From: Muribaculaceae bacterium
GTDB lineage: Bacteria; Bacteroidota; Bacteroidia; Bacteroidales; Muribaculaceae
Direction of reading: 5' to 3'
Length of the DNA stretch: 64,000 nt
Assembly (NCBI GenBank): GCA_017405965.1
Contig: JAFQZK010000004.1
Span: 1 to 64,000 of the forward strand
The notes under the pieces are model-generated. The model ran no database searches. It was not told the origin of the DNA and worked only from the letters and a program-made list of their open reading frames with translations. Positions 42,877 through 58,659 of this stretch are shown in pieces (the first letter of the stretch is position 1; each line of letters opens with the position of its first letter). The translations under genes were made by a program, and so were the position numbers.

Positions 42877-45800
42877 TTAACGCAGAACCTTGGCTGTGGA
42901 AATTGAGCCGTCGGTGTAACGTGTCACCACAATGTTGATACCCTCAAACGGCTGCTTGCTTTCTACGCCCATCAGGTTGTAGTAGCTCACACTCTTGACA
43001 GCCCTGTCGTTCATCAGCTCGCAAACTGCGGTTACAGTTCCGTTGGAAGAAGACTCGGAACTGAGCGGATAAACGATATAGAGCGGCGGGTTGTCCTTCA
43101 GGTTACCGTCTTCCTCGGTGTAGGGCTGGATGCGGTGCGGTGCACCGTTGCCACCATTGCTCCATGCATCAGGATTCTTGCGCACAATTGCCTCGAAACC
43201 ATAGAGTTTCTCGGGAGTGGTGGTATTTGATGCGGTGAAGCAGTCGAGTACACGAGTGTTCTTGGTCACATCATAGTCCTCGCACAACGACATGTTGGCG
43301 GCGAAGCTGCCCTTGAACCTGTGACCGTTGATCTGGTTGCCTTCCTGGGCGGGAGCGATAAAGAAGTTGTCCTCTCGAGTGTAGTAAGCCCACACTACCT
43401 GGCAGAACTCCTGGGGCTTGGCGTCCATGAAGAAGAAGTACTCACCACCGAGCTCGTCTTCACGATAGCTCATGGCGCCGTCGGCGTCGATATTCTCGGC
43501 CAGGAAGTTGGCCGTGCAGTAGATGTTGGGGGTGTAGGTCGAACCAACCTCCTGCACAACGGGAAGGTTGTTGCCCAAGTCGATGGTCGGGTTCAAGGCA
43601 TCTACATAGGTACCGCTGACAGAACCGGCACTGAGAATCTTGTTCTCATAGGTGTCTTTGAGCGTACCCAAAACCTGCTGATAGACATTAATGTCGACAG
43701 CCGTCTTGTCGGTGATGCTGTTCGGAATCAAAATCTCAATCCAGTTGCTCTGGTCATAGTCCTTCTGCTCAACCGTGTTGATGAAGGTACCGTTCTGGTT
43801 CTCGAACTCAATCAGATAGTTCTTCTGGCCATCGGCGGGATAACGCTTGGCGGCATACATCTCGTCGTCCTTGGCAAAGATGGCGAACTTGCCCTTGTTG
43901 TCATCCCAAGTCACGTGAGCGGCGATCAGCGGGTTGGAGATGGTGTAAGGATTACCCTCTTCACCAATCTGTACCAGGTCCTCAAGACGCACGCTGTTGT
44001 CTTCCCACTCGGTAAACTTGATAGGCATGATTTCATAACCGTTCTGCCACTTCTGGAAGATGAAAGTCACATTGTAGAACTTGTTATCGGTGGGCAGTGT
44101 AACACCAATCTCATTGCCCTGCTTGTCCTTCCATGCCGGGCTGTCGTACTTGTTGTAACCCACAATGGCGGTGCCGCCTTGTACCTCCGATACATCGTCG
44201 CCATTCTCATCGGCAGCGATGCGGAAGTTAAGGCCATTGACGTTGGATACCTGCAGCTTGTTGATGTACAGGTAACGGTCATTGTAGTTGGCGGGATTTT
44301 CAAGCAGCTCGCTGAGCAGCACCTGCTCGGGATCGGCAAGGGCCGTCAGGGTAGTATCGCGGAATGTATCTTGCCACTCGAAGCACTGAGCCTGATAGTA
44401 TTGACCTTCTTGATAGTAGCCCTTCTTCACCTTGAAGCCAGGAGGAATCACGTCACTGTTCTCATACCTGGCAGCAAAATCTGATTTGAACTGAGGCTGG
44501 ATGAAGAACTGCATGTAGCCCGTGCGGTCCTTTACCCAGATGTATTCTTGACCACTGCCACTGTTTTGTGAGTAGTCAAACAATACGGTCACGGGACTCA
44601 TGAAGGTAACCTCTTCGCCATTATCCAATTCCATGAACTCGGCGATGCTGTACACCTTATCGCTCTTGAAGTTATAGGTCGCGCTGGCCGTTGCCGTGGA
44701 CTGGCCTTTGACAGCCGTTGCCTCGACAGTCATCTCGTGGTTGGTCTCGTCGACGTTAACCGTGAAAGGTCCAGTGTAGGTCTGCGGTTCACCACCGTTG
44801 ATGGTATAGGTCACAGTAGCGTCGCTGGGCGTCGGGGTGATGGTTACAGTGACAGGAGCGCTCACACGCTGTGAGGCCGGACTGATGGCAACAGTTACCC
44901 TATCCCAATAATAGGTCACGGTGGCTATCTTGCTGACGTTGCCATCGCCGTCAACGGCAATTGCCTTGACAGTGACGGGAGCCGAGCCGTAGGCTACCAC
45001 GGGCTTGTTGTCCGGGTCATAGACAGCGCTATTCTGGGTGGGATCACTACCATCCAGGGTGTAATAGATGGTGACATTCTCGGTCGAGCAAGTCATGGTC
45101 ACCTCAACGTCATCAAACATCTTATTGGCCGTGCCACCCTCAGGAGAAATGACGGGTTTAGCCACCTTGACGGTACCCTCCCTATAGAGTTTGGCATTGG
45201 GCATATTGCTTGTTGACAGATAGCAGGCATAACGCGTACTGCTAACATTGCACTGCAGGTATCTTCCCGTGCTACCCACATTCTGGATCACGACATTGTA
45301 ATTGTTATCAATGTAATTGTTATCAATCGAGAGCGTCCACTTGTAAGCGTCGGTTGTGCCCTTTGAGCCTCGGTTAACTGTATTGCCTGAGTAGTAATAC
45401 AGATATTGACCAGACAGATCCCTGATGTAGAATTGGCCATTGCCTGCGTTCTCGAGAGTGAGCACATTGACATCGGTCGGGTCTGCCAATGTCACAACGT
45501 CATCATCCACCGTGAAACCATTCGTCACAGTCGCATAGTAGTTGCTGCTGTTAAAATTGTTACTCAGCGCATAATAAGTGTAGGGGTTAGTACTCGTTCT
45601 GGTATATACCAGCACATAATCCTCGAACGGTACAATATCCTCATCATCCTTCACCAGGACATAGGTATTACTACCTGCAGGTTTAATGACGTAGGTAGCC
45701 TCGACCACAGTGCTGGTAATGCCGCCATAGACGGCGACAGCCTTGATGGTAGTCAACTCAGCTGTCACAGGAATGGGACCAGTGTACTGGGTGCTGTTGG

Positions 45801-48582
45801 CATCAGGCGTCGAACCATCGGTAGTATAATAGATATGGGCACCCGGGGTGTCGCAAGTGATCTCCACATTCTGGGCCACTTCGTAACGGCCAGGCTCGGG
45901 CGAGAAGACAGGAGCGTGCACATCGGGAACGATGCGCATCATGTTGGTCTCGGGGTCAAGCGTGATGGTATAGGTACCAGCAAGCATCTTGACAGCGTGA
46001 TGTATTGTCGAGTCAAGAGGAAAATCCTGGTTCATGCTGCCTTCGCTAAGCCACCAGTCACCATTAGGATTATCATAAGATGGATCGGCTTTCGGACCGA
46101 AAATATAACTCGACTGCCAATTGACATCGCTGCCCGACTTCTTGGCGAATACCAGATAGGTATCGCTCGTTGTGGTCAAGGTTTGGGTGTAAACACCGTT
46201 TTCATAGCCCATCTGGATACCGTTAGCGAAATCCCAAGAGGGGCTGGTCACAATGTAAACCGGGCCATTGTGCTTGTAGTGAACTGGGACGTCAACATCG
46301 GCAACGCCGCTGGTTGTGGTACTCACGCGCACAGTGTTGTCCGACTTCAACAGACGGCCACTGTAGTTAACCGTAGCGGTGGTCTCAACCACACTGCCGT
46401 CGGCTGTAGCGATGGTCGTGGGATTAACGGTCCACTTGTCATAATTGGTGCTGTAGTTGGTGTTCAAGATGCTCAGGTTGACGTTGGCATCAAGATAGCC
46501 GGCATTCACCGTGAGTGCGCCACCATCGATGGTGCCAAAGCTCAACGGATTGGGCGTGGCGGTCATCGTGGCGGGCGGCGGGGTAGCCTTCTTAGCGGTC
46601 ACGGTGACCGTCTCGGTCAGGTCACCGCAAGTTACGGTGATGGTGCAAGTTACGGGTTCGGTGCTCGTGCCGTTATAGGTCACGGTGAGATTCTGGTTCA
46701 CCGAGCCGTCGGTGGGAGTGAGCGTCGTGGGCGTTACCGTGAAGTCAGCACCCGTATAAGTAATGTTCACATTACCAGCCAAATGGGCACCGCTCACATG
46801 AACCGTGCCACTGGTCGATGCACCAGCCGCGGCATTGTAGGCAATGTCGTCCAGCGCCTGCGACGGGGGCGTAACCGTCAGAGACGGATCATTGCTGTCC
46901 TTGACATAGAGGCATGCAAGGCTTTGATTGCTAGTGTAGCAAGCAAAGCGGGGACTGCCTGAGTTGTAGAATAGGGTCCTATCAGTATTGCCTACATTTG
47001 TCAAAGCAAAACCTGTGAAACCGCCCACTGTTTTACTGGCAACGGTCCAACTGGATGAATTGTTGACTGAACTTGATGTCGTCAATGAGTTACCGCTGCT
47101 CCAACTCAGATAATTGTTACCATATTTAAAGGTCCATGCATCACCATTATCACCCAACGTCAATTCCACAACGTCAGTGCCACCAATGTTTACAGTGTTG
47201 TTGTTGAATGTCAGATTGTTGACGACACTACCGCAATTGGTGCCGTTAATCGGTGCTATCACACCCATTCCCACACCATAATTCTCATTGACGATGATGT
47301 ACGTTTTGCCGACCATGAGGTCATCCAAACTGGTCACCTTCTTATAGATATTTTCAACCACGGGTGCGTTGACGGTGAGGGTGAGGCTGCTCTCATCGCT
47401 CTCGTTGAAGTCGTCATCAAGCGCGATGGCACGGATGGTGCAACCCTCGGTAATGGTCACCTGGGCGGTGTTGCCGCTAGTCATCGTGGCGGTGCCGCTG
47501 TTCGCAGGATCAGTCCCGTCGGTGGTATAGCTCAAATAGTTGCCACTATCGGCCGTAATGTCAACCACGGTGCCGTTGTCCACGGCCTGAGTGCCCGTTA
47601 CAGGCGTGCCGTTGATGCTGAACACCGGAGGTGTAACAGTCACCGGCGTGGTACCATCATCCTTGACATAGATATAAGCAACAACTCTGTTAGTTGTTGA
47701 ACTTGTCAACTGAAAAACAGAACTGCTGGTATTAAAGCGGATGTAATAGGAAGTGTATTGATTGTTCCTTATTCCATTGTCGTTAATCGTCCATTTGGTA
47801 TCGGCGTAGCTTGTGTCATCTACAGGATAAAAGCCATCATAATTCGTATTAGTCGCTAAATATTTGCCATTGGGCAGCTGAAATGTCCATGCATCAGAGG
47901 TGCCACCCAAAGTGAATTCAACAACATTCTTGCCACCGATATCAATCTTGTTGTCGGTGCCAATAGGTGCAGCGACTCCGGCAGCGTGATGGGTCGCGAG
48001 GTCAATCTCACCCATCGCGGCCGATGAAGCTCCGTTCTCATACACAATGATATAATTCTTGCCGGCTTTCAAGTCATTGGTGCTCGTTATCTTGCGATAC
48101 CAATTAGGTTCAGCAGGCGTGTCACCACCTGTTTCTTTTTCATAAGTAACAGCAACTGTAGCAATAGAAGTAGTGTTAGAAGCAGTGAATGCCTCAGAAG
48201 TAATGACAGCATTTGTTGCTGGTGTCCATGTTCTTGAATTATTGTTTGGTCCTGAATATGAGCCATTAGCTGGACTCATGTTCTGCAAGTTTGCTCCAGT
48301 GATAGTAATACTCTTGATTGTATTGCCACTAGCCTCAACAGTCATACTACCACCAGACTTATAAATACGAAGATTTGTACCATCAAAGTAAGGATCATTT
48401 GTGCCCTTAGTAAACGTCAAAGTGACATCGCCACTTGAAACGACCAGTGGGGCTGGAAAACTAGTTCTTGCAGTCCAGCCCTGATCAGCCATAGTAATGG
48501 TTGTTGTCACCGTCTCAGTTTCTGCCCAGCCGACCGAGAATGCCAGCAGAGCAGTCAATAAAAAAGTAAGTAACCTGTTCAT
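42877..48582 (-). CDS. Giant (1,901-residue) secreted multidomain surface protein
   Basis: The signal peptide is MNRLLTFLLTALLAFSVGWA. Three copies of a roughly 150-residue module each start with KI/KV(T)SxxDLxxGKxYIIV or VLVKDDEDIVPFEDYVLVYT. Each continues to VVEFTLGG..DAWTF or LTLENAG and ends with a strand such as ACLYVKDS. Between them are Ig-like and chitobiase C-terminal-like modules (YYTTDGSTPDANSTQYTGPI, IYYTLDGSDPTQNSAVYDPD, TYTINGGEPQTYTGPF). A C-terminal half contains OB-fold-like text (YSIAEFMELDNGEEVTFMSP). The end is YYNLMGVESKQPFEGINIVV, then TRYTDG and KVLR. No catalytic motif is seen. It is probably a glycan-binding adhesin exported by type IX secretion. Confidence 0.88.
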   Translation of the reverse strand: MNRLLTFLLTALLAFSVGWAETETVTTTITMADQGWTARTSFPAPLVVSSGDVTLTFTKGTNDPYFDGTNLRIYKSGGSMTVEASGNTIKSITITGANLQNMSPANGSYSGPNNNSRTWTPATNAVITSEAFTASNTTSIATVAVTYEKETGGDTPAEPNWYRKITSTNDLKAGKNYIIVYENGASSAAMGEIDLATHHAAGVAAPIGTDNKIDIGGKNVVEFTLGGTSDAWTFQLPNGKYLATNTNYDGFYPVDDTSYADTKWTINDNGIRNNQYTSYYIRFNTSSSVFQLTSSTTNRVVAYIYVKDDGTTPVTVTPPVFSINGTPVTGTQAVDNGTVVDITADSGNYLSYTTDGTDPANSGTATMTSGNTAQVTITEGCTIRAIALDDDFNESDESSLTLTVNAPVVENIYKKVTSLDDLMVGKTYIIVNENYGVGMGVIAPINGTNCGSVVNNLTFNNNTVNIGGTDVVELTLGDNGDAWTFKYGNNYLSWSSGNSLTTSSSVNNSSSWTVASKTVGGFTGFALTNVGNTDRTLFYNSGSPRFACYTSNQSLACLYVKDSNDPSLTVTPPSQALDDIAYNAAAGASTSGTVHVSGAHLAGNVNITYTGADFTVTPTTLTPTDGSVNQNLTVTYNGTSTEPVTCTITVTCGDLTETVTVTAKKATPPPATMTATPNPLSFGTIDGGALTVNAGYLDANVNLSILNTNYSTNYDKWTVNPTTIATADGSVVETTATVNYSGRLLKSDNTVRVSTTTSGVADVDVPVHYKHNGPVYIVTSPSWDFANGIQMGYENGVYTQTLTTTSDTYLVFAKKSGSDVNWQSSYIFGPKADPSYDNPNGDWWLSEGSMNQDFPLDSTIHHAVKMLAGTYTITLDPETNMMRIVPDVHAPVFSPEPGRYEVAQNVEITCDTPGAHIYYTTDGSTPDANSTQYTGPIPVTAELTTIKAVAVYGGITSTVVEATYVIKPAGSNTYVLVKDDEDIVPFEDYVLVYTRTSTNPYTYYALSNNFNSSNYYATVTNGFTVDDDVVTLADPTDVNVLTLENAGNGQFYIRDLSGQYLYYYSGNTVNRGSKGTTDAYKWTLSIDNNYIDNNYNVVIQNVGSTGRYLQCNVSSTRYACYLSTSNMPNAKLYREGTVKVAKPVISPEGGTANKMFDDVEVTMTCSTENVTIYYTLDGSDPTQNSAVYDPDNKPVVAYGSAPVTVKAIAVDGDGNVSKIATVTYYWDRVTVAISPASQRVSAPVTVTITPTPSDATVTYTINGGEPQTYTGPFTVNVDETNHEMTVEATAVKGQSTATASATYNFKSDKVYSIAEFMELDNGEEVTFMSPVTVLFDYSQNSGSGQEYIWVKDRTGYMQFFIQPQFKSDFAARYENSDVIPPGFKVKKGYYQEGQYYQAQCFEWQDTFRDTTLTALADPEQVLLSELLENPANYNDRYLYINKLQVSNVNGLNFRIAADENGDDVSEVQGGTAIVGYNKYDSPAWKDKQGNEIGVTLPTDNKFYNVTFIFQKWQNGYEIMPIKFTEWEDNSVRLEDLVQIGEEGNPYTISNPLIAAHVTWDDNKGKFAIFAKDDEMYAAKRYPADGQKNYLIEFENQNGTFINTVEQKDYDQSNWIEILIPNSITDKTAVDINVYQQVLGTLKDTYENKILSAGSVSGTYVDALNPTIDLGNNLPVVQEVGSTYTPNIYCTANFLAENIDADGAMSYREDELGGEYFFFMDAKPQEFCQVVWAYYTREDNFFIAPAQEGNQINGHRFKGSFAANMSLCEDYDVTKNTRVLDCFTASNTTTPEKLYGFEAIVRKNPDAWSNGGNGAPHRIQPYTEEDGNLKDNPPLYIVYPLSSESSSNGTVTAVCELMNDRAVKSVSYYNLMGVESKQPFEGINIVVTRYTDGSISTAKVLR

Positions 48583-48628
48583 AAAAAATAACTTGAATTA
48601 TGTGAATTAAAGATTAAACTGCATGCCA

Positions 48629-48673
48629 AAGAAAAAGCCATCGGCTATACCTTTTTTGAAGGTTGCGATGGCT
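48629..48673 (-). promoter_or_regulatory. Terminator-like hairpin inside the leader of the giant gene
   Basis: On the minus strand AGCCATCG (48673-48666) pairs with CGATGGCT (48643-48636), with an inner ACCT/AGGT stem, and is followed by TTTTCTTT. It lies between promoter and start codon, so it could attenuate transcription. Confidence 0.5.
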
Positions 48674-48836
48674 AGTTGAGATAGGGTCACATAACAAAAA
48701 AATGGCACTCAAAGCTTTACGAGCTGCAAGACACTTACTGTCAAGTAGCTGAAAATCATTGAATTCCATCTTTGAAACCCTATAGTTCATATTTTGACCA
48801 CGACAACTCCTCGAAAGAGCTTTACAAAACTTGGCG

Positions 48837-48867
48837 CAAAGGTATGTATTTTTCTCATTGTCACCAA
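48837..48867 (-). promoter_or_regulatory. Promoter of the giant surface protein gene
   Basis: TTG (48867-48865), 20 bases, TACCTTTG (48844-48837) on the minus strand. The leader to the ATG at 48582 is about 250 bases. Confidence 0.6.
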
Positions 48868-49035
48868 GAAAAAAAATCATCATTTTTCAAAATTTTTATG
48901 ACTTTCGGCCAACGATGATAACATTTCAATCAATCTGGGACAAGAATAGGTGAAATCATCTCTTCGGCGCCTGCTGGGATGGTGGACAGTAACACTTTTT
49001 AACGCAGGAATTCTCTGTGAATGGCGAAAAGGCAC

Positions 49036-49043
49036 TAATTTTG
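49036..49043 (+). promoter_or_regulatory. -7 element of the tubulin-like operon
   Basis: TAATTTTG, 52 bases before the ATG at 49095. No clear -33 box. It is the only promoter-like site seen before 58.6 kb on this strand, consistent with one long operon. Confidence 0.4.
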
Positions 49044-49094
49044 CTATTTAATGGGAAAGTGTTCCCTTTTTACAGAAAAAAGAAAAAATTGAAG

Positions 49095-50546
49095 ATGTTA
49101 AATATGAGACGATTACCGTTGTTGCTGATGGCTTGCGCCATGATGGCAGGTTTGCTGTCGTGCGGTGGCCACGGCAAACTGGAGAAGGCGGTGCGCAGTG
49201 TGCTGGTGAGCGGTGACACGACCCGCGCAGCCTATGACTCGTTGTGCTCGCTGGTGACCGACAACCCCGGCAAATACAGTGACATGCTCACGCCCGAGGG
49301 CCGTGTTGACCACAAGAAGATGGCCGATTTCATCGAACAGATCGGCTCACAGTTGCGACCGCCCATGCACTGGGACACGCGCCCCTATGGCGGCGTGGAC
49401 GACCTGTCGCTGACGGTATACTTTGAACGCAGCGGCTCGATGGTCCCCTACGACCAGCGTGGCGGTGGCGGACAGTTGAAGAAGGCTGTCAACGACCTGA
49501 TCAACCACTTCCCCGCCGGCAGCAAGGTGGACATCAACATCGTGAACGACGGTATCTACCCCTACCAGCACACGGTCGATGAGTTCCTGAAGGACCGCGA
49601 CATCTACCAGAGCACGGCAGGGGTGGGAGACGCCGCCTACACCGATTTCCAGCTGATTTTCGAGAAAATCCTGGAAGCCCAGCGTCCCGGCAACGTGAGC
49701 GTGCTGGTGAGCGACCTGATCTATTCGCCCAAGGACACCCGTGGCGTGAGCCTGGACAAGATCTTCAACGAGGAGAACAGCCTGGCCACCCGCGTGTTTG
49801 CCAAGTACAAGGGCAAGAGCGTGGTGGTGCAGCAGTTCATGGGCGACTACAGCGGCAAGTATTACCCCTATAACGGGGTGCCGTTTGAGTACAACGGCAA
49901 GCGACCGTTCTACCTGGTCATCATCGCCGATGGTGACGCAATGGACCAGCTGGCCACCGACAAGCGCTACAGCGGCGTGCTCGACGCTCCCGCAGTGCGC
50001 TACAGCTACCGCTTCAACCAGGCCACGAGCGATGTGCAGTGCCGCGTGCTGCCCGAGTGGAAGGACAACGCGGGACGCTTCCGCGTCAAGCATGGCGACG
50101 GCATCGTGCTGGCCAAGTGTGACGGCGACCGCCAGACGGGCAAACTGTGCTTCTCGCTGGCAGCCAATTTGGGCGGTCTGATGAAGGACGACGCCTTGCT
50201 GACCAACCCCGCCAACTATGAGGTGAAGAGCATCGACGGCTATACCCTCACGGTGCAGCCCATCGACCAGAGCATGGTGACGGCCAACAACAAGGAGTAC
50301 TTGGAAGGCATGACACACATCCTCACCCTGGTGGGCGACTTGAAGAGTCCGCGTGACGAGGTGCACATCTCGTTGCGCAACGAGCTGCCCGAATGGGTGC
50401 GCCAGTCCTCGAGCCAGAGCGACACCAGTGCCGGCGGCTCGTTCTCAACCACGACGCTGGGCCTGGAACAGCTGCTGGGCGGCATGTTCGACGCGATGAA
50501 GGGTGGCAGCAGCTTCTTCGACATCACCATCAATCTCCAGCGTTAA
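49095..50546 (+). CDS. Lipoprotein with a von Willebrand A-like domain, first gene of the tubulin-like operon
   Basis: The start is placed at 49095 (49104 is equally possible); the longer frame from 49017 would begin within the promoter. RRLPLLLMACAMMAGLLSCG is a lipoprotein signal. Residues about 100-260 show a VWA fold with a MIDAS: LTVYFERSGSM (Glu in place of the usual first Asp of DxSxS), a Thr in GDAAYTDFQLIFEKI, and an Asp in VSVLVSDLIYSPKD. A beta-rich C-terminal half follows and ends in a Ser/Gln/Thr-rich linker and GLEQLLGGMFDAMKGGSSFF. VWA domains bind protein partners through a metal ion. As a lipoprotein it would sit in the periplasm or on the outer membrane. Confidence 0.8.
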   Translation: MLNMRRLPLLLMACAMMAGLLSCGGHGKLEKAVRSVLVSGDTTRAAYDSLCSLVTDNPGKYSDMLTPEGRVDHKKMADFIEQIGSQLRPPMHWDTRPYGGVDDLSLTVYFERSGSMVPYDQRGGGGQLKKAVNDLINHFPAGSKVDINIVNDGIYPYQHTVDEFLKDRDIYQSTAGVGDAAYTDFQLIFEKILEAQRPGNVSVLVSDLIYSPKDTRGVSLDKIFNEENSLATRVFAKYKGKSVVVQQFMGDYSGKYYPYNGVPFEYNGKRPFYLVIIADGDAMDQLATDKRYSGVLDAPAVRYSYRFNQATSDVQCRVLPEWKDNAGRFRVKHGDGIVLAKCDGDRQTGKLCFSLAANLGGLMKDDALLTNPANYEVKSIDGYTLTVQPIDQSMVTANNKEYLEGMTHILTLVGDLKSPRDEVHISLRNELPEWVRQSSSQSDTSAGGSFSTTTLGLEQLLGGMFDAMKGGSSFFDITINLQR

Positions 50547-50641
50547 ACAAGACCTTAAGGACCCTATCGACCTTAACGACCTTAAAGTCCTTAAGGGCCT
50601 TAAGAACCCAAACTAAAGAATAAAACTAAAGACTGCAAGAT
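50547..50641. repeat. Low-complexity linker built from CCTTAA words
   Basis: Seven CTTAA words (mostly as CCTTAA or GACCTTAA) occur within about 60 bases between the first two operon genes. Several are parts of the self-complementary word CCTTAAGG. Confidence 0.7.
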
Positions 50642-51097
50642 ATGAAACATTTGGTTTATCTGATTATCGGCATTGGCATCACGCTGCTGTTCTTCATCCT
50701 GAGCTGCACCGACGGGTTCAACATCTGGGAGCAGATGTTCTTCAACCAGGGGTACAACGACAAGATGTACAACCTGAACATGTATCCCGTGATTGCCGCC
50801 ATCACCATCCTCGTGGCATGGGGTGGCGCCGCGATTTACTACTATGCCATCAACTCGGTGAAATTCGACCGGTGGTATCACTGGCTGGCCGTGCTGGGCA
50901 TCGTTGCCGTGCTGGCACCCGTTGTGTGCTACATCTACAACGACACGGTGTTTGCCAGCAACGGCTTGATGTACATCGGCGAGTCGATCCAGTTCGAGAT
51001 GCAGACGGTGCTGTTCGCCGCCCTGCTCTATATCGTGGCATCTTACTCGATGCGCTGGTGGAGCAGCAACTGCCGCCACACGCCGCTGCCGCAGTAA
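50642..51097 (+). CDS. Four-helix integral membrane protein
   Basis: The 151-residue protein has four hydrophobic segments: about residues 4-22 (LVYLIIGIGITLLFFILS), 48-68 (YPVIAAITILVAWGGAAIYY), 79-98 (HWLAVLGIVAVLAPVVCYIY) and 115-135 (QTVLFAALLYIVASYSM). A soluble loop of about 25 residues after the first helix contains NIWEQMFFNQGYNDKMYNLN. No family is recognised. Its position between the VWA lipoprotein and the tubulin-like gene suggests an inner-membrane anchor or channel of the complex. Confidence 0.75.
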   Translation: MKHLVYLIIGIGITLLFFILSCTDGFNIWEQMFFNQGYNDKMYNLNMYPVIAAITILVAWGGAAIYYYAINSVKFDRWYHWLAVLGIVAVLAPVVCYIYNDTVFASNGLMYIGESIQFEMQTVLFAALLYIVASYSMRWWSSNCRHTPLPQ

Positions 51098-51143
51098 ATC
51101 ATAAACAACTAGAAACTAGGGACTAGAAACCAGAAACTACAAT

Positions 51144-52667
51144 ATGAGACTATTCCTTTTTGCTATCGGAGGTACCGGATCGAGGGTATTGAAGTCGCTG
51201 CTGATGCTGTCGGCAGCCGGCGTGCGTCCCCTTGACGAGAACGGCAAACCCGTAAAGGACCTGGAAATCGTGCCCGTCATCATCGACCCGCACAAGGCCA
51301 ACGAGGACCTGAAGCGCACCGAGGCACTGCTCAACGACTACCGCGACATCAGGCGCAGGCTCTACGGCAACGAGCCCAACGCCGAGGGTTTCTTCGCTAA
51401 CCGCATCGTCACCCTGCGCGAGATCATGAGCAACACGAGCGTGACGCTGAGCGACACCTTCATCTTCAATCTGGGTGCCGTGGAGAATGCCAAGTTCCGC
51501 GAGTTCATCGGCTATGACACGATGAACGAGGCCAATCAGGCATTGACCTCCCTGCTGTTTGCCAACTACCAGTTGGAGAACAAGATGAACATCGGCTTTG
51601 TGGGCAGTCCCAACATCGGCAGCGTTGCGCTGAACGAGATCAAGGACAGCAACGAGTTCAAGGCCTTCAGCAACATCTTCCGTCAGGGCGACCGCATCTT
51701 CTTCATCAGTTCCATCTTCGGTGGCACGGGAGCTGCAGGCTTTCCCATCATGGTCAAGAACATACGCCAGGCGGCCAATCTCGAGGGCATCGAGAACCGC
51801 GACGCCCTGAGCCGTGCCCCCATCGGCGGCTTGACGGTGCTGCCCTACTTCACCCTAGAGGGTAACAAGCAGGACCAGCGCATCGCCACGAGCGACTTCA
51901 TCGTCAAGACCCAGAGCGCATTGTACTACTACAAGAACACGCTCACGGGTGCCAACGACAGCAACGTCAACAGCATCTACTACCTGGGTGACCAGGTGAG
52001 GTCCAAGCCCTACCTGTATGACCCAGGCGAGCATGGCCAGCGCAACAACGCCCACCTCATCGAGCTAATCGGTGCTCTGGCGCCGCTGGATTTTGCCGGT
52101 GCTCCTGACAGTAAGCTCACCGACCCCGACGGCTACCCGTTACCCACGATGGCCTATGAATATGCCCTGGCCAAGGACGAGTTGAGCCTCAATTTCCTGT
52201 CGCTGGGTCATCGCACCCGCCAGCTCATCTATGAGCCCATGAGCAAGTTCCACCTGCTGTTCCTGTTCCTGACCACAGGCTTCAAGGACATCATCGGGCA
52301 GGGCTTCACCGAGGACGCGCCCAAGATCAAGAGCGACTTCCTCGTGTCGCAGTTCTACCGCACGCTGGTTGACCACTTCATGCTGGGCTATGCCCAGTGG
52401 CTCACCGAGATGAACGACAACATGCGCAGCGTGGCCTTCTTCAAGCCGGGCGAGATCGACATGGCCCATGCCATCGAGGGTGTCGGGGTGAAGAAACGCC
52501 TGCTGGGACACTACAAGGTCGATAACGACGTGCTCAAGGCCGAGATGAACAAGCTGAGCAAGAACAACGCCAGCTACAGCGACCACTCGGTGGAATACAA
52601 ACTGCTCGACCTGTTCGACAAGGCCGCCCACAATGTGTTCATCGAACGCTACGAAAACATCAATTAG
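51144..52667 (+). CDS. Tubulin/FtsZ-like GTPase-fold protein
   Basis: The 507-residue protein opens with a nucleotide-binding loop FLFAIGGTGSRVLKSLL, then VPVIIDPHKANEDL. It has the tubulin-signature-like Gly loop ISSIFGGTGAAGFPIMVKNI (compare GGGTGSG), followed by IGGLTVLPYFTL. This is the layout of the bacterial 'tubulin-like' (FtsZl) families rather than of cell-division FtsZ, which is shorter and carries a C-terminal SepF/FtsA-binding tail. As I recall, one FtsZl family was proposed computationally (Makarova and Koonin, 2010) to work with VWA-domain proteins in membrane remodelling. Here a VWA lipoprotein, membrane proteins and an Hsp70/actin-like ATPase are in the same operon. Polymer formation is inference. 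Confidence 0.8.
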   Translation: MRLFLFAIGGTGSRVLKSLLMLSAAGVRPLDENGKPVKDLEIVPVIIDPHKANEDLKRTEALLNDYRDIRRRLYGNEPNAEGFFANRIVTLREIMSNTSVTLSDTFIFNLGAVENAKFREFIGYDTMNEANQALTSLLFANYQLENKMNIGFVGSPNIGSVALNEIKDSNEFKAFSNIFRQGDRIFFISSIFGGTGAAGFPIMVKNIRQAANLEGIENRDALSRAPIGGLTVLPYFTLEGNKQDQRIATSDFIVKTQSALYYYKNTLTGANDSNVNSIYYLGDQVRSKPYLYDPGEHGQRNNAHLIELIGALAPLDFAGAPDSKLTDPDGYPLPTMAYEYALAKDELSLNFLSLGHRTRQLIYEPMSKFHLLFLFLTTGFKDIIGQGFTEDAPKIKSDFLVSQFYRTLVDHFMLGYAQWLTEMNDNMRSVAFFKPGEIDMAHAIEGVGVKKRLLGHYKVDNDVLKAEMNKLSKNNASYSDHSVEYKLLDLFDKAAHNVFIERYENIN

Positions 52668-52683
52668 TCTACCCACCAGAACA

Positions 52684-52711
52684 CCCCACGCCAAGACGCT
52701 AAGGCGCTAAG
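52684..52711 (+). repeat. Left inverted repeat of the GxxExxY insertion
   Basis: CCCCACGCCAAGACGCTAAG followed by GCGCTAAG. Its inverted partner at 53145-53172 matches at 25 of 28 positions. Confidence 0.85.
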
Positions 52712-52728
52712 AATTAATAAACTTTTAT

Positions 52729-53165
52729 ATGGCCGAACAACAAATATGGAGAAATGATGGAAGCCGACCTGTCCTAGACAGCATTTATGAGGTCTATAGG
52801 CATCTGGGCCCGGGTCTATTGGAGTCTGTATATGAAGAGGCGCTGATGATTGAATTTGCCTCACGAGGCATTCATGCACAACGACAAGTACCTGTTCGTG
52901 CTACATATAAAGGCAGAGACTTAGGGATGGACTTTATTCTAGATATCCTTGTTGAGGACAGCATTGTACCTGAACTGAAATCTGTTGAAGAATTGCATCC
53001 CGTTCATTATAAACAGTTATTAACCTATTAAAAATGGCTGATAAACGACTTGGTTTTATTGTCAATTTTAACGAACATATACTTAAAAATGGCATTAAAC
53101 GTGTAGTCAATAACTTTGATGAATCGTCAATAGAACAAAAAACACTTAGCGCCTTTGCGCCTTAG
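52729..53165 (+). pseudogene. GxxExxY family protein, frameshifted
   Basis: The first frame reads 100 codons, including YEVYRHLGPGLLESVYEEAL with the name-giving GxxExxY motif, and FASRGIHAQRQVPVRATYKG. It ends at TAA after LLTY. Shifting frame at about 53029-53034 continues the family sequence as LKMADKRLGFIVNFNEHILK and NGIKRVVNNF, ending at TAG 53163-53165. One base appears missing before an A5 run. Intact members are about 125 residues and belong to the PD-(D/E)XK-like group; their function is uncertain. Inverted repeats flank the unit, and it interrupts the tubulin-like operon. A sequencing error in the A run is the alternative. Confidence 0.85.
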
Positions 53166-53172
53166 CGTGGGG
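53145..53172 (+). repeat. Right inverted repeat of the GxxExxY insertion
   Basis: CTTAGCGCCTTTGCGCCTTA followed by GCGTGGGG, the reverse complement of 52684-52711 with three mismatches. It supplies the stop codon of the frameshifted gene. Confidence 0.85.
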
Positions 53173-53203
53173 CCGATGTGACTAACGCAAACTAAAGAAG
53201 AAT

Positions 53204-56200
53204 ATGAGCGAGATATTATCATACAGTAACAACACGAGCAAGAACGGCGAGGAGGATTGGATTGCCCATGCCCCCTACAGCGACGACGACATTGCCCGCA
53301 TCAAGGATCCGGACGGCGGCCTGAGCGAGAATCCCCGCACCGCCATCCCCAGCCCGCTGGCCCAGCTCGACCTGGTGAAGAACGCCTTCAAGCAGCTGGC
53401 CAACGAGCACCTGCGTGGAGCGCGCATGAACGAGCGCCTGGTCTCCAACGCCCTCGACGTGGCCCAACTGTTCTTTGACTACGAGAACCACAAGGACTAC
53501 CTGCGCATCATCCGCTGGAACCGCGAGGAGTGCATCGAGCAGCTGAAGGCCAATCCGCAGCACCGCCTGTACGGCGAGACGCTCGACCTGTTCTTGCGCA
53601 GCGACAAGGTCTATAACTTTGACCTGCTCAAGGACTGGTACATCATCATGTGGGACCGTCAAGTGCTGGGCGGCACATCACCGTCGTCGATCGTGATGGC
53701 AGCCCCCGCATTGGGCACCATTCCCGCCATCAAGGTAGAGCAGGGCGTGAGCCTGTTCGGTGAGACGCGCCACCTGTGGCAGCGTGACGAGGACTTCGTG
53801 TGCTACATGTACCTGCTGATGAACGCCTACCCCACCCTGCGCACCCACTGCCCCGAGGTGTATGCCTACATGCAGAAGAACCTGAATCCGTTGCGCCAGC
53901 AGCGCCCCGAGCTGTATCGTCGCATCACCTCGATCATCCCCAACCTGGACGCCCTCGACGAGGGCCGCGCCGGAGCCGTGCTGGAGCAGTTGGAGCAGAA
54001 CTACGACCCCTTCGGGGGCGGAATCGACGTGAGCGTGCTGGGAGCCCGCTTCTATCACAAGCGCGTGCTTGACATCCGCACCGCCGCCAGCGAGAGCGAC
54101 TTTGTCATCACGCCCACCATGCCCCAGGACAAGAAAGAGTTGCCGCTGGTGCTGGTCAACGGCTTCAACGGCAGTGTGGAACACTTCCGCTACATCGACA
54201 AGGAATGGGACAGCGCCACCCAGGTGTATGCCGGCGGCATCCCCTTGAGCGACCGCAAGTTGCCCGACACCTCGATACAATACCCGTTTGTCACCACCGA
54301 CGACTTCCTGACCGACACCATCGTCCGTCTGGGCAGTGGCTGCGTGATCGACACCGACCATTTCTTTGACGGCAACCTCAAGCCGCGCACGCCGCAGCCC
54401 ACCTGCGGCTACCTGCTGCCCTTGAAACCGTTGCTGTTCACCTATTTTGACACCGAATACCTGAAAGGCACCATCGCCGGCCGCCACGTGATCGACATCG
54501 AGGAGTTTGCCGACGGCAGTGTGATGGTCACCCTGCGCATCCGTGTCAAGAAAGGTGAGAACCGCTATATAGAGCTGTCGCGTAAGTACTTCCCCATCAA
54601 CGACCACACGTGGACCTTCGACGAGAGCCGCGGCACTGGCCGTGTGATGGGCGCTACATTGTCCACCTCGGTATTCCCGTTTGTCAAGACCGACGCCAAC
54701 GACGACTATACCGTCGAACTGTTCACCATGATCGAGAACGGCGGCGCCACCTTGCGTTTCTACAAGAACGGCATCAAAACCGATGGCCTGAACGTGCGCG
54801 ACGCCATCCGTTCCCACTCGGGCTACAGCACGACCTACTACGACGTGGACGGCTCGTTCGACTACATGGAGGTGAGCGTACAGAACCACCTGGGCCGTGC
54901 CAGCGGTGTGATCATTCCGCAATGGAAGCCCTATGTCCCCAGCGCCAAGGAGCTGATTTTTGCCGTGGACTTCGGCACCACCAACACCCACGTCGAGTGG
55001 GCCGAGCGTGGCCAGCCCTCGAGGCCGTTCACCTTTGAGTACGGCTCTCAGCAGGTGCTCGTCGCCTCGTTGCACAAGCCCAAGTCGCTGGAATATGCCG
55101 AACAGGTGCAGCGCGTGGAGTTCGTGCCGCGTGAAATCGACAACGTGTACGGTTTCCCGCTGCGTTCCACCCTGGCCCGCAACGAGAACAGCGGCGTGGG
55201 ATGCAACCTGTTCAGCGACGTGAACATCCCGTTCCTGTATGAGCGCCGCTACTTCCATGGCTATGAAGTTACCACCAACCTCAAGTGGAAAGGCGACACC
55301 GCACTGGCCAAGGCCTTCCTGCGTGAGCTCACCCTGCTCATCAAGGCCAAAGCGCTGCTCGAGAACGCCGACCTGCGACGCACCGAGGTCGTTTACTTCT
55401 ATCCCGTGAGCATGGGCGGTGCCGACCGTGACACGCTGGAACGCACCTGGACCGAACTGTTCAACACCTACATCGGTGCCGACAGCGATCATCTGCGCTC
55501 CTACCCCGAGAGCCTCGCTCCCGCCTATTACTACAGCGGAGCCGAAGTGGCCGGCAGCAGCTATGTGTCGATCGACATCGGCGGCGGCACGTGCGATACA
55601 GTGATCTATCAGCCGACGGCCGACCGCATGTCGAGCGAACCGGTAGCCATTTCGTCGTTCCGCTTTGCGGGCAACGCCATCTTCGGCGACGGATTCACCG
55701 ACAAGGATGCCGACAACAACCCGTTGCTGCAGCACTACACACGCTACTTCAAGCAGCTCATCGAGAACGACAAGGGCAACAACATCGCCTATCTGGGCAG
55801 CATTCTCAACGACATCATGGCTCAGAAACGCAGCGAGGACATCAACGCCTTCCTGTTCTCGATCGAGAACGTAGAGGAGCTGCGCACCCTGCGCGAGATT
55901 GACCGCAACCTGTACAGCTACAACGCCTTGCTGCGCAACGACAGCCAGCGACGGCTCATCTTCATGTACTTCTACTCGGCCATCATCTACTACATTGCCC
56001 AGGCGATGAAGCAACGCGGCTATGAGATGCCCAAGCAGATCTATTTCTCGGGCACCGGCAGCAAGATCCTCAACATTCTGGGCTCGATGAGCCGCATCAA
56101 CATGCTCACCCAGACCATCATCGAACGGGTATTCGGCAAGCAGTACACCGAGTCGTTTGAGATCAAGCTCGAGGACAAGTGCCCCAAGCAGATCACCTGC

Positions 56201-56647
56201 CGTGGCGGCATCAAACTGGAAAACAGACGTCTGGAGGGCCAAGCCGACGTGACACGCTACAACGCCACGAACGTGAAGCGCATGCGGTACTGCTGCTCGA
56301 TGCTGGGCGAGGACGATCTGACGATGGCCCAAGTGGAGTCGGTCGAGGTGAGAGACCGTCTGGTCGAGAAGGTCAAGGAGTTCAACCAGTTCTTCGTGAA
56401 CCTGTGCGACTCGACCATCAAGGACGAGTTCGGCATCGAGAACAATGTGCTGAGCCTGTTCAGGAGCGTGCTCGACGAGAATCTGGCCAATTACTTGACG
56501 GCAGGCATCAACACCTTCCTCAAGGGCCGCTACAATGCCACCGATGTGGTCGAGGACGTGCCGTTCTTCTACCCCGTCATCGGCGTCATCCGTCACAATC
56601 TGCTCAAGAATATGCGCAACGACGTCATCAGCAAGTTTAATCAATAA
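53204..56647 (+). CDS. Very large protein with C-terminal actin/Hsp70-type ATPase domain
   Basis: The 1,147-residue protein has no signal peptide. Residues about 580-1147 form an ASKHA ATPase: phosphate-1 motif LIFAVDFGTTNTHVEWAERG (about 583-602), phosphate-2 motif YVSIDIGGGTCDTVIYQPTA (about 786-805), and adenosine motif QIYFSGTGSKILNILGSMSR (about 945-964). Hsp70 and actin relatives share these. The first 570 residues are a unique region: a helical part (residues 30-260) and a beta-rich part containing PLVLVNGFNGSVEHFRYIDK and YIELSRKYFPINDHTWTFDE. I recognise no substrate-binding domain of DnaK type. Together with the tubulin-like protein this puts an actin-fold and a tubulin-fold nucleotidase in one operon. 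Confidence 0.85.
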   Translation: MSEILSYSNNTSKNGEEDWIAHAPYSDDDIARIKDPDGGLSENPRTAIPSPLAQLDLVKNAFKQLANEHLRGARMNERLVSNALDVAQLFFDYENHKDYLRIIRWNREECIEQLKANPQHRLYGETLDLFLRSDKVYNFDLLKDWYIIMWDRQVLGGTSPSSIVMAAPALGTIPAIKVEQGVSLFGETRHLWQRDEDFVCYMYLLMNAYPTLRTHCPEVYAYMQKNLNPLRQQRPELYRRITSIIPNLDALDEGRAGAVLEQLEQNYDPFGGGIDVSVLGARFYHKRVLDIRTAASESDFVITPTMPQDKKELPLVLVNGFNGSVEHFRYIDKEWDSATQVYAGGIPLSDRKLPDTSIQYPFVTTDDFLTDTIVRLGSGCVIDTDHFFDGNLKPRTPQPTCGYLLPLKPLLFTYFDTEYLKGTIAGRHVIDIEEFADGSVMVTLRIRVKKGENRYIELSRKYFPINDHTWTFDESRGTGRVMGATLSTSVFPFVKTDANDDYTVELFTMIENGGATLRFYKNGIKTDGLNVRDAIRSHSGYSTTYYDVDGSFDYMEVSVQNHLGRASGVIIPQWKPYVPSAKELIFAVDFGTTNTHVEWAERGQPSRPFTFEYGSQQVLVASLHKPKSLEYAEQVQRVEFVPREIDNVYGFPLRSTLARNENSGVGCNLFSDVNIPFLYERRYFHGYEVTTNLKWKGDTALAKAFLRELTLLIKAKALLENADLRRTEVVYFYPVSMGGADRDTLERTWTELFNTYIGADSDHLRSYPESLAPAYYYSGAEVAGSSYVSIDIGGGTCDTVIYQPTADRMSSEPVAISSFRFAGNAIFGDGFTDKDADNNPLLQHYTRYFKQLIENDKGNNIAYLGSILNDIMAQKRSEDINAFLFSIENVEELRTLREIDRNLYSYNALLRNDSQRRLIFMYFYSAIIYYIAQAMKQRGYEMPKQIYFSGTGSKILNILGSMSRINMLTQTIIERVFGKQYTESFEIKLEDKCPKQITCRGGIKLENRRLEGQADVTRYNATNVKRMRYCCSMLGEDDLTMAQVESVEVRDRLVEKVKEFNQFFVNLCDSTIKDEFGIENNVLSLFRSVLDENLANYLTAGINTFLKGRYNATDVVEDVPFFYPVIGVIRHNLLKNMRNDVISKFNQ

Positions 56648-56679
56648 AATTATACAATATCTCCAAAACTCTTAAAGTT

Positions 56680-57849
56680 ATGAAACGCATTACTTTAATC
56701 CTGGCAGCCATCATCTGCCTCGCCATTACAGCAATGGCGCAAGACAATCAACCGGTTCAAATCAATCCCGACCAACCGCTGTCGCCGGCACTGTGGAAGC
56801 AGGGCGTTGCCCGCTGTGCCCACTACACGGCCTACGCCAAGGGCTTTGCCAAGAAATCCGAAGAGATGCAGAGCCGTTTCCCCCAGGGCTACACCCTCGA
56901 TGACCTGAACAACGACGTTTACGGCAACCAGGGCGCCAAGTGGGAAAAGATCTACAATGAGTTCAAGAAAAGCGAGGACAAGGGCGGTAGCCTGAACGAC
57001 CTCAAGGAACTTGTGATTCCCCAAGTATGGAAGCTTGTAGAACCTGATTTCCAGGCATTCATCACCGACCATCCCGAGATTGCCAACGCTGTGCCCGCTG
57101 CAGCCGGCAACGAGAATCCCGAGGGTGTCCAAGAGGATGCTGAGAATGCCTCGACCGACGCCGAGCCCATTCACGACGCCCGCCACCGTCAACAACGCAA
57201 CGGCAACGGCATGGCCTGCAGCGCCAACCTGCCCCTGTGGCTGAGCATCCTCGGCGCTTTGCTGGGTCTGTGCGCACTGCTCACTGCCCTGAGCAACCGT
57301 GGCAAGATCAAGGAGATGCAGCGCACCTTTGCCCGCGAGTTGGATCGCACCAACGCCAATCTGCAGGAGTTCTCGACCGACGCCGCCGACCAGATGAAGG
57401 CGCTGTCCATCCGCTTGACCGGTAAGGGTTACCGCAAACCCGAACCCGTTGTCGAGACCGAAGTGATGGCCGAGGCTGAGCCCATGATCGAGGAAGCTGC
57501 CGAACCCGTAGCACAGGAAGAGGACGGTGAGGTGATGAACCTGTTCATGAACAAGCCCGACGAGGATGACAACTTCACCCGCGTGAGTGACACCTTCGAG
57601 CCCGGCAATTCCATCTACGTGCTCACCACCTTTGACGGACAGCACGGCACCTTCGAGGTCATCGACAAACCCGAGGTACACAGCTTTGCACTGATGATGC
57701 CTGCCGAGAACCTGATCCATGCCTGCTCGGGCAATGCCATCCAGATTCCCAACGGCACCCGCATCGTCACCGACCGTCCCGGTGAAGCCGAGTTCATCGA
57801 CGGCAAGTGGCACATCGTGGTTAAGGCCATCATCCACTACGAGGGATAA
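56680..57849 (+). CDS. Membrane protein with signal peptide, central transmembrane helix and cytoplasmic C-terminal domain
   Basis: The signal peptide ends ITAMAQ (residue 21). Residues 22-170 would be periplasmic, helical and acidic (CAHYTAYAKGFAKKSEEMQS, GAKWEKIYNEFKK). One membrane helix lies around residues 183-206 (LPLWLSILGALLGLCALLTAL), followed by a coiled-coil-like stretch (GKIKEMQRTFARELDRTNAN), an acidic Glu/Pro-rich linker, and a compact beta-rich domain (NSIYVLTTFDGQHGTFEVID to the end). No family is recognised. Its topology could connect the periplasmic VWA lipoprotein with the cytoplasmic tubulin- and Hsp70-like proteins. Confidence 0.75.
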   Translation: MKRITLILAAIICLAITAMAQDNQPVQINPDQPLSPALWKQGVARCAHYTAYAKGFAKKSEEMQSRFPQGYTLDDLNNDVYGNQGAKWEKIYNEFKKSEDKGGSLNDLKELVIPQVWKLVEPDFQAFITDHPEIANAVPAAAGNENPEGVQEDAENASTDAEPIHDARHRQQRNGNGMACSANLPLWLSILGALLGLCALLTALSNRGKIKEMQRTFARELDRTNANLQEFSTDAADQMKALSIRLTGKGYRKPEPVVETEVMAEAEPMIEEAAEPVAQEEDGEVMNLFMNKPDEDDNFTRVSDTFEPGNSIYVLTTFDGQHGTFEVIDKPEVHSFALMMPAENLIHACSGNAIQIPNGTRIVTDRPGEAEFIDGKWHIVVKAIIHYEG

Positions 57850-57852
57850 AGT

Positions 57853-57940
57853 TTACTGAGCCTTCAGCAATTAGCTATTAGCTTTTAGCGGGTCACACAT
57901 GCCGCTGAAGGCTAATAGCTGACTGCTGAAAGCCATTAAC
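57853..57940. repeat. Low-complexity linker built from TAGCTATTAGC-like words
   Basis: CAGCAATTAGCTATTAGCTT, later GCTGAAGGCTAATAGCTGAC. The words are near-palindromic and repeated, including inverted GCCTTCAGC/GCTGAAGGC, between two operon genes. Confidence 0.65.
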
Positions 57941-57949
57941 CAAAAAACT

Positions 57950-58414
57950 ATGCGCTGGACCTGTCCCAAATGCGGCAAGAAGCTGGAAATCAGCAACGAG
58001 CAGTTGATTGCCAACGATGGCGTCATCGTCTGCCCGCAATGCTTGTTGCAGGCCCGCCAGCCCGTACCCAAGGCCCGTGTCACCCCGCGCAGCGACAAGC
58101 CTGCCGACACCCCTAAACGAGGAAAAGAAAGCATCGATTTCGATACCCCGCCCGAATACAAACCCACAACCCCGCCACCCTACAAGACACGCATGAAACA
58201 AGCCACCACCTCCTACCGCTACACTGGCCTCGGAGGCAACAGCAACACCAATTCCACTGCACCCAGGAAAAAGACCACCACAAAAAAGAAATCCAAAAAG
58301 AAGAAACAACAGGGCATGAGTGCCTTGGGTTGCTTGGGACGCACCATCGTCTTCACCCTGGTGCTGTTCGCCGCCTACGTCTTCTTCGGCCTTCTGCTCG
58401 AAGCCATGCAATAG
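57950..58414 (+). CDS. Zinc-ribbon protein with C-terminal membrane anchor
   Basis: The 154-residue protein begins MRWTCPKCGKKLEISNEQL and has VCPQC 20 residues later, a CxxC...CxxC zinc ribbon. Residues 40-110 are Pro/Thr/Lys-rich and probably disordered, with the basic run KKTTTKKKSKKKKQQ. The last 30 residues hold one membrane helix (CLGRTIVFTLVLFAAYVFFG), giving a tail-anchored topology with the ribbon in the cytoplasm. It is the last gene of the tubulin-like operon; 100 bases of repeat-like linker separate it from the previous gene. Confidence 0.75.
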   Translation: MRWTCPKCGKKLEISNEQLIANDGVIVCPQCLLQARQPVPKARVTPRSDKPADTPKRGKESIDFDTPPEYKPTTPPPYKTRMKQATTSYRYTGLGGNSNTNSTAPRKKTTTKKKSKKKKQQGMSALGCLGRTIVFTLVLFAAYVFFGLLLEAMQ

Positions 58415-58500: not shown

Positions 58501-58651
58501 ATAGAGAACAAATTGAGCGTCAGTGCTTTACCATCAGTAAACGCACGATAAACAGGATTCAGAATCAATTGATTTAGGCTGGTTGGTCAATTGTCATCTG
58601 TTTTCAACACAATTTAAGGATTATTCATACTTTGATGTCAGTCAAAAGCAT

Positions 58652-58659
58652 TATCTTTG
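58652..58659 (+). promoter_or_regulatory. -7 element of the DUF4491 gene
   Basis: TATCTTTG fits TAnnTTTG. The longer open frame would start at 58657, inside this element, so the ATG at 58720 is the better start. Confidence 0.5.

Follow-up and report, generated by a model that had tools for sequence, protein, structure and literature searches.

Introduction

FtsZ-like proteins outside cell division have been described next to genes for von Willebrand factor A (vWA or VWA) proteins. Makarova and Koonin (2010; PMC2875224) found the FtsZl1 family associated with genes for vWA, OmpA, GTPases and kinases and suggested a role in membrane remodelling; a reviewer of that paper proposed transport or signalling. 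The T6–H7 elements were not confidently found in FtsZl1 by the authors, and their alignment figure includes Bacteroides caccae. Here, we describe a six-gene operon from a Muribaculaceae bacterium (assembly GCA_017405965.1, contig JAFQZK010000004.1, positions 1–64,000; this stretch of 64,000 nucleotides is referred to as the window). It encodes, in this order and on the forward strand, a VWA lipoprotein (VWA), a small membrane protein (TM), a tubulin-like GTPase (TUB), an Hsp70/actin-like ATPase (ASK), a bitopic protein (SP_TM) and a zinc-ribbon tail-anchor protein (ZnR). An initial annotation, made from the sequence alone, had cited a link of FtsZ-like families to VWA proteins and membrane remodelling, which PMC2875224 bears out.

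Two other kinds of system share parts of this composition. Kaur et al. (2020; PMC7159879) presented tubulin with vWA, and HSP70, as non-overlapping themes of DO-GTPase systems, which they read as conflict systems, and named TerD for VMAP systems. In Zorya, ZorA and ZorB assemble in a 5:2 ratio into a motor that is powered by ions and has a cytoplasmic tail, and ZorB binds peptidoglycan (PMC11890865). Tubulin_2 proteins were set aside as divergent by Santana-Molina et al. (2023). No description of a TUB–ASK–VWA set was found in the literature searched, a scope from which preprints and most subscription papers were absent.

As a rule, nucleotidases of the tubulin type and of the actin/Hsp70 type work in different machines. 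In the present operon they occur together, in many genomes of the phylum and once as a fusion, and both are associated with a VWA lipoprotein; in relatives, ion-motor-like proteins join them. The role of FtsZ-like/vWA operons, left open in 2010, becomes directly testable.

Results and Discussion

Comparison with described systems

The operon is like the FtsZl1/vWA operons of PMC2875224 in placing an FtsZ-like protein beside vWA and membrane proteins, and a VWA gene neighbours TUB in all 64 loci eligible in our survey (see below). It is unlike them in that TUB falls below the Pfam Tubulin_2 cut-off and adjoins an ASKHA gene; Hsp70, DnaK and MotB do not occur in the main text of that paper. Compared by length, TUB (507 aa) also differs from the FtsZl1 type, a long protein whose FtsZ-like N-terminus is followed by an extended coiled coil and a helical C-terminus; the example given there has 1051 aa and a coil of >300 aa. 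The OmpA-type proteins of FtsZl1 operons have a counterpart in the OmpA/MotB-type (ZorB-like) proteins of the relatives studied here.

The NTP-dependent conflict loci of PMC7159879 are similar in that tubulin accompanies vWA, or HSP70 is present, and in the zinc ribbons on their GTPases. They are, however, mostly from firmicutes and actinobacteria, and have a DO-GTPase and GAP1. Neither was detected among the operon proteins, which had no P-loop GTPase match at E ≤ 1 in Pfam or NCBIfam, searches in which DO-GTPase and GAP1 models were not used. Proteins like ZorA and ZorB of Zorya are present in relatives, not in the window type, and their partners are TUB, ASK and VWA; ZorC, ZorD and ZorE were not met in the relatives, with no search aimed at them. 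A search of the six proteins for a known defence system with PADLOC gave only HEC-01A on SP_TM (0.0064), which was taken as chance. The initial annotation had recognised no named system. TUB lies below the cut-off used for FtsZl1, and the operon is without the ZorA and ZorB of Zorya. In our best reading, the operon is akin to FtsZl1/vWA operons and to Zorya and would fall under neither definition.

Conservation of the six-gene set

TUB was found in 36 of the 37 genomes of the genus, the window's own included, and the sole exception is only 74% complete. Its identity to the window protein was at least as high as that of FtsZ in 32 of 35 genus genomes and tracked it (rho = 0.79); vertical descent with strong constraint within the genus therefore fits the pattern. 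A scan of named genomes returned at least 560 TUB relatives, from which the best 80 loci were kept. Those among them with the nearest TUB were from rumen and gut Bacteroidales, many of them labelled Muribaculaceae and two labelled Candidatus Sodaliphilus (70–71% identity); the window's genus is likely Sodaliphilus.

After 16 loci with short flanks had been dropped, all six genes were present in 57 of the 64 eligible loci (counts per gene are given in Table 1), and in 22 of 27 eligible representatives with less than 90% TUB identity. Their places are nearly constant relative to TUB: VWA at −2 (70/73), TM at −1 (62/62), ASK at +1 (74/77), SP_TM at +2 (58/63) and ZnR at +3 (39/53). The next commonest same-strand family near TUB occurred in 18 of 78 loci. 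Chance neighbourhood is ruled out by these positions and by the conservation of the set, and with it the possibility, raised in the initial annotation, that the genes adjoin in this genome alone.

Across the six genes, dN/dS in eight near-relative loci ranged from 0.024 to 0.232, genes without a call in a locus being excluded. The values were 0.024–0.084 for TUB, 0.049–0.075 for ASK, 0.058–0.149 for VWA, 0.062–0.178 for TM, 0.112–0.232 for SP_TM and 0.074–0.175 for ZnR. All six genes are therefore real and under purifying selection.

In one genome of the genus, the operon occurs in an additional, diverged copy in which ASK is duplicated in tandem (L021, G033:C14, 5729–17248). Upstream of this copy, on the opposite strand, is a protein-kinase-like open reading frame (ORF), and downstream of it a gene for a retropepsin-like protein. 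Several genomes of the genus also have a second, shorter FtsZ, in frames of about 336–424 aa with 50–69% identity to the FtsZ of the window's genome (G018:C14, G003:C69, G031:C45, G030:C123 and G014:C3, among others); it adjoins the first FtsZ in G030 and G014.

The two nucleotidases

The initial annotation had pointed to a tubulin-type Gly loop in TUB and to a full set of ASKHA motifs in ASK, and both proved to be family-wide. In TUB, the GGTG and FGGTGA loops are invariant in 10/10 family members. In ASK, the same holds for D589, G591, D791, G793, G794, T796, D798, G950 and G952, which cover the phosphate-1, phosphate-2 and adenosine motifs.

The window TUB scored 13.8 bits against Tubulin_2 (PF13809; cut-off 27, E = 0.03). 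Ten of ten diverse TUB members had matches at E ≤ 1 to both Tubulin_2 (best 2.4e-7) and Tubulin (best 0.002), and Tubulin_2 was found above its cut-off in one of 148 genomes of the phylum, not the window's own. In a rank test with a TUB profile, 20 of 25 FtsZ proteins outscored the whole background of 484 proteins (p = 7e-18), with a best FtsZ E-value of only 0.0017; reversed FtsZ sequences, used as a control, gave p = 0.15. The background was not ideal, as reversed DnaK sequences also ranked above it with both the TUB and the ASK profile (p = 0.0006 and 1e-6). Direct alignment of TUB to FtsZ with hhalign had a probability of 1.3, which weighs against a relation to tubulin and FtsZ, and a sequence search of the PDB found one tubulin/FtsZ chain at 0.089, too weak by itself. 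Taken together, the profile relation and the Gly-rich nucleotide loops suggest that TUB belongs to the tubulin/FtsZ superfamily.

The conserved loops, and the same pairing of an FtsZ-like protein with vWA and membrane proteins in PMC2875224, are what would be expected if the operon encoded a membrane-remodelling cytoskeleton of the kind proposed there, in which TUB polymers shape or traffic membrane at its inner face while VWA and TM set the site. We regard this as improbable, since the TUB polymers are predicted only, T6–H7 is in doubt even in FtsZl1, and remodelling alone leaves both the ASKHA partner and the ZorAB-like proteins of relatives unexplained.

By hhalign, ASK matched DnaK with a probability of 95–96% (FtsZ control, 0.7%), and in the rank test its profile placed 25/25 DnaK proteins at the top. 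The single window protein had no Pfam HSP70 match, and five Hsp70-type sequences found in the PDB from 0.033 are too weak by themselves. The motifs and the profile relation together indicate an ASKHA protein related in sequence to Hsp70. The local match spans DnaK residues 145–215; only when a global alignment was forced did it extend further. ASK had been described in the initial annotation as an Hsp70-like protein of 1147 residues. This holds for its C-terminal half (residues ≈580–1147), while the N-terminal ≈580 aa have no Hsp70 likeness and no family.

SrfB proteins (PF07520) are large and ASKHA-like. SrfB matched 3 of 10 ASK members weakly (best E = 0.054, far from significance), and this identity was rejected for ASK; it was not found in the 148 phylum genomes either, in a search without a positive control. 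A viral origin was likewise rejected, as a scan of viral contigs found no ASK relative.

That the set is core and strongly constrained within the genus would suit a housekeeping role in envelope assembly or quality control, with ASK as a chaperone-like ATPase for secreted proteins and TUB as its scaffold. The likeness to DnaK is limited to the nucleotidase part, however, and elsewhere the set is patchy and partly linked to mobile genes (see below), so that we consider such a role very improbable.

The VWA lipoprotein and the membrane proteins

The metal-ion-dependent adhesion site (MIDAS) of VWA, as the initial annotation had noted, has the DxSxS..T..D pattern with Glu in place of the first Asp. 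These residues (E111, S113-G-S-M, T183-D184 and D207) are invariant in 28/28 alignment rows, and the distant homologues in L023 and L160 have Asp at the first position. The window protein had no Pfam match and no PDB sequence match at E ≤ 1; the MIDAS pattern and the homologues with the usual Asp are what point to a VWA domain. From the lipid-bearing Cys on, the sequence is CGGHGK, which is not acid-rich and therefore, by the rules for Bacteroidota surface lipoproteins, argues for a location at the periplasmic face. In one operon subtype, large proteins of 775–1136 aa are encoded directly 5' of VWA (L233, 1043–7370; L239, 1477–7221).

SP_TM has a signal-peptide-like start, followed by a predicted periplasmic part, one transmembrane segment, a cytoplasmic coil and a conserved C-terminal domain. 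In ZnR, an MJ0042-type zinc ribbon at the N-terminus is joined by a basic linker to a hydrophobic C-terminal tail.

Distribution in the phylum and gene fusions

In a survey of 395 genomes of the phylum, ASK was found at E < 1e-7 in 11 besides the window's own, and in 11/11 TUB was present and adjacent (in L161, ASK runs off the contig). The full tally of 39/395 for ASK includes 27 genomes with weak, mostly short matches (E from 3e-5 to 1e-3), which were dropped from the co-occurrence count; most lie in frames of 418–502 aa and may, by size, be FtsA-like. Weak matches were also seen in G390 and G395. G395 has a weak TUB match without a separate ASK; G450 has a frame-broken TUB with no ASK beside it, in a genome with 13% contamination. 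VWA was found in nine of the 11 loci after iteration; of the other two, L158 has its start close to the end of a contig, and in L159 a lipoprotein-like gene without a match is present.

Within the family, TUB was present in 35 of 149 genomes, in several subtypes. We read 20 of these sister loci: ASK lies beside TUB in all 20 (truncated in L225; TUB broken in L229), VWA was matched in 14 (a fragment in L225) and TM in 15. Five loci (L226, L228, L231, L232 and L238) have unmatched genes of like size in the VWA and TM places, the smaller with three hydrophobic segments; their equivalence to VWA and TM is unproved. L229 has no gene in the VWA place.

TUB and ASK form one protein in G275: the fusion, in L219 (548–5392), has 1615 aa, with the TUB match at residues 118–203 (E = 5.8e-9) and the ASK match at 1141–1305; by eye, it has two Gly loops along with a pair of ASKHA phosphate motifs, and hhalign of the TUB family to the fusion gave 95.4%. 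The gene that follows is lipoprotein-like, and the next has PADLOC ZorA matches that lie mostly in coil (3.9e-7). Then come two short proteins, with a first helix that is ZorB-like by eye only; they had no Pfam MotB or OmpA match, and the one that was scanned had no PADLOC match. A second fusion, VWA::TM, is found in L023 (506–2047), where VWA corresponds to residues 29–334 and TM to 383–514. The fusions suggest two units, VWA–TM across the membrane and TUB–ASK inside.

Exchanged modules in relatives

In relatives, the last genes of the set give way to ZorA/ZorB-like motor proteins, TerD or peptidases. Profiles seeded with eight proteins each found ZorA-like proteins in 12 loci and ZorB-like proteins in nine (a tenth ZorB at 1.8e-4), seeds included. 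The Asp of the membrane (channel) segment is kept in 9/9 ZorB-like proteins. Both types are carried by L152, L153, L154, L156, L160, L224/L227, L240 and L241; a single element present in two genomes accounts for L224 and L227. PADLOC recognised ZorB at 2.6e-27 (L160), 4.8e-14 (L153) and 7.7e-11 (L152), and Pfam matched OmpA at 1.1e-16 (L160) and MotA_ExbB at 6.2e-5 (L153). None was found among the ORFs called in the 80 window-type loci, and searches of the window's own genome were empty, without a positive control.

Among 63 hand-picked module proteins (51 of 89 listed and 12 from L158, L159, L235, L237 and L240), TerD was matched by seven and Trypsin_2 by three; by size and place, the TerD proteins are probably those of L159, L228 and L238. 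Small retropepsin-like proteins with a DTGA motif, several with lipoprotein-like starts, occur in seven loci, between SP_TM and ZnR in L107, L120, L128 and L131 and after the core genes in L021, L151 and L220. Some six-gene sets thus carry an extra predicted peptidase, which the window does not.

The flanks of the 20 sister loci (110 proteins) contained Relaxase (4), Phage_integrase (3), TraM (2), TraO (2) and TraQ (2), from fewer independent elements, as L224 and L227 are one element and L223 and L231 share flank genes. PADLOC matched chiefly kinase-type models in these flanks, with two members each and no recognised defence system, among the best 25 of 81 matches. For the window type, the scan covered 116 of the 148 proteins that flank 20 loci, and none of the best 25 of 116 entries was a mobile-element family; the two sets had different length cut-offs and rarer families fall outside the listing, which makes this a contrast rather than a test. 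The set is core in the genus, and patchy and partly beside mobile genes elsewhere in the family; it therefore seems to be one superfamily with accessory forms and one form that has become core.

Swappable modules such as TerD, Trypsin_2, the DTGA proteins and the ZorAB-like proteins, the patchy distribution in the family and the mobile genes in sister flanks would fit an anti-phage or inter-genome conflict system, in which the core senses an envelope breach and deploys an exchangeable effector, similar to Zorya and following the grammar of Kaur et al. (2020). We consider such a system rather unlikely: the window type is nearly universal in its genus with TUB mostly at least as conserved as FtsZ, its flanks are without mobile-element families and the sister flanks without recognised systems among the matches listed, its own proteins yielded only the HEC-01A match, and the six genes include no recognisable effector.

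A putative trans-envelope machine

From the observed composition, conservation, co-occurrence, fusions, module exchange and active-site motifs, we propose a trans-envelope sensor-switch machine, whose likely job would be to sense or correct perturbation of the envelope; its topology, complex formation, signalling direction and function are predictions from sequence, and we judge the proposal to be about evenly balanced between right and wrong. In the periplasm, the VWA lipoprotein would bind a ligand through its metal site and be held by TM. In the cytoplasm, the TUB GTPase and the ASK ATPase would form one two-nucleotidase unit, whose NTP-dependent assembly state would be the switch. SP_TM, through its cytosolic C-terminal domain, and the tail anchor of ZnR would anchor this unit at the inner membrane. 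The core of relatives may instead be coupled to a motor of ZorA/ZorB type, driven by ions and bound to peptidoglycan, or to modules with TerD or peptidases, whereas the window type would have lost the motor or never had it, becoming part of the core gene set of its genus. The motor may thus be one interchangeable input or drive, and the ZorAB homologues beside the same core suggest a machine that works at the cell wall.

The initial annotation had proposed a trans-envelope machine in which two cytoskeletal-fold nucleotidases act through membrane adaptors on an outer VWA lipoprotein. Of this, the conserved two-nucleotidase unit with its membrane adaptors and VWA lipoprotein is upheld by the surveys (57/64 and 11/11 loci) and the fusions; the ZorAB-like motors, TerD and peptidases of relatives widen the reading towards envelope surveillance or conflict. 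A bolder version, possible but doubtful, is a Bacteroidota-wide class in which the TUB–ASK unit engages a rotary ion motor of ZorAB type at one side and a VWA receptor at the other, its motor-less form domesticated as core cell-envelope machinery in Sodaliphilus and Prevotella.

Several observations count against the proposed machine. ZnR is absent from seven of the 64 eligible loci (L099, L104, L123, L125, L126, L127 and L143), and L104 keeps VWA–TM–TUB without ASK, SP_TM and ZnR. The Prevotella SP_TM copies shown keep only the C-terminal part, without signal peptide or transmembrane segment; SP_TM thus does not everywhere provide the connection through the membrane. VWA was undetected by profile in six of the 20 sister loci. 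Each fusion is a single example; in L219, the match of the ASK half is weak (E = 7.6e-5), and VWA was not significantly matched by the gene that follows the fusion (0.66). PADLOC matches to ZorA are weak (1.2e-8 in L160, 1.1e-7 in L220, 2.6e-5 in L153, none in L152), and the six-gene version has no recognisable effector.

Species-named strains with closely related six-gene sets exist in Prevotella koreensis, Hoylesella and Leyella, and they can be compared with forms that bear a motor. Sodaliphilus, to which the window probably belongs, is represented in culture by its type species, Sodaliphilus pleomorphus.

Organization of the locus

Table 1. Features of the operon and its surroundings in the window.
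Feature	Position	Strand	Characteristics
VWA lipoprotein, 483 aa	49095–50546	+	Lipobox-like ..LLSC-GG; MIDAS with Glu for first Asp; 64/64 eligible loci
TM, small polytopic membrane protein, 151 aa	50642–51097	+	3–4 hydrophobic segments in homologues; 64/64 eligible loci
TUB, tubulin/FtsZ-like GTPase, 507 aa	51144–52667	+	GGTG and FGGTGA loops
Inserted GxxExxY (PDDEXK_3) unit	52684–53172		Outside the conserved set; ORF 52729–53031
ASK, ASKHA (Hsp70/actin-like) ATPase, 1147 aa	53204–56647	+	C-terminal nucleotidase; 63/64 eligible loci
SP_TM, bitopic	56680–57849	+	Signal-peptide-like start, one transmembrane segment, conserved C-terminal domain; 63/64 eligible loci
ZnR, 154 aa	57950–58414	+	MJ0042-type zinc ribbon, hydrophobic C-terminal tail; 57/64 eligible loci
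Bacteroidota-type promoter consensus	58631–58659	+	Between ZnR and next gene (DUF4491)

The ORF calls reproduced the six same-strand genes of the initial annotation with the same coordinates (Table 1). Its short spacers were found for four gaps (95, 46, 32 and 100 bp); TUB and ASK are separated by 536 bp, within which lies a gene that had been missed, whose ORF matches GxxExxY/PDDEXK_3 (Pfam, 3.5e-29). This gene stops early and seems, by eye, to resume in another frame, so it is apparently frame-broken. The unit is flanked by 28-nt imperfect inverted repeats and has a G+C content of 0.403, compared with 0.569 for the locus. In 69 of 75 named loci with both genes called, the TUB–ASK gap is <130 bp (median 39); the unit is therefore a local insertion, not part of the conserved set, and looks like an inverted-repeat passenger inserted into the operon. 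Three of the 95 loci surveyed have GxxExxY, between TUB and ASK in L085, as in the window, and ahead of TUB in L022 and L098, which are one contig.

The Bacteroidota −33/−7 promoter consensus matched eight times across the window (1.07 expected). In agreement with the initial annotation, which saw no internal promoter-like site, the pattern scan gave zero matches within 48583–58414, and no strict match 5' of VWA either. One match lies just past the sixth gene, ahead of the DUF4491 gene, and likely marks the end of the operon. A sigma-70 scan of the window was uninformative (8 found, 8.0 expected).

The window's genome has a size of 3.6 Mb. Between SP_TM and ZnR, positions 57860–57933 contain a REP-like, 32-nt imperfect inverted repeat (84%). 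Divergent from the operon, on the reverse strand at 42877–48582, lies a gene for a repetitive, secreted-looking protein of 1901 aa.

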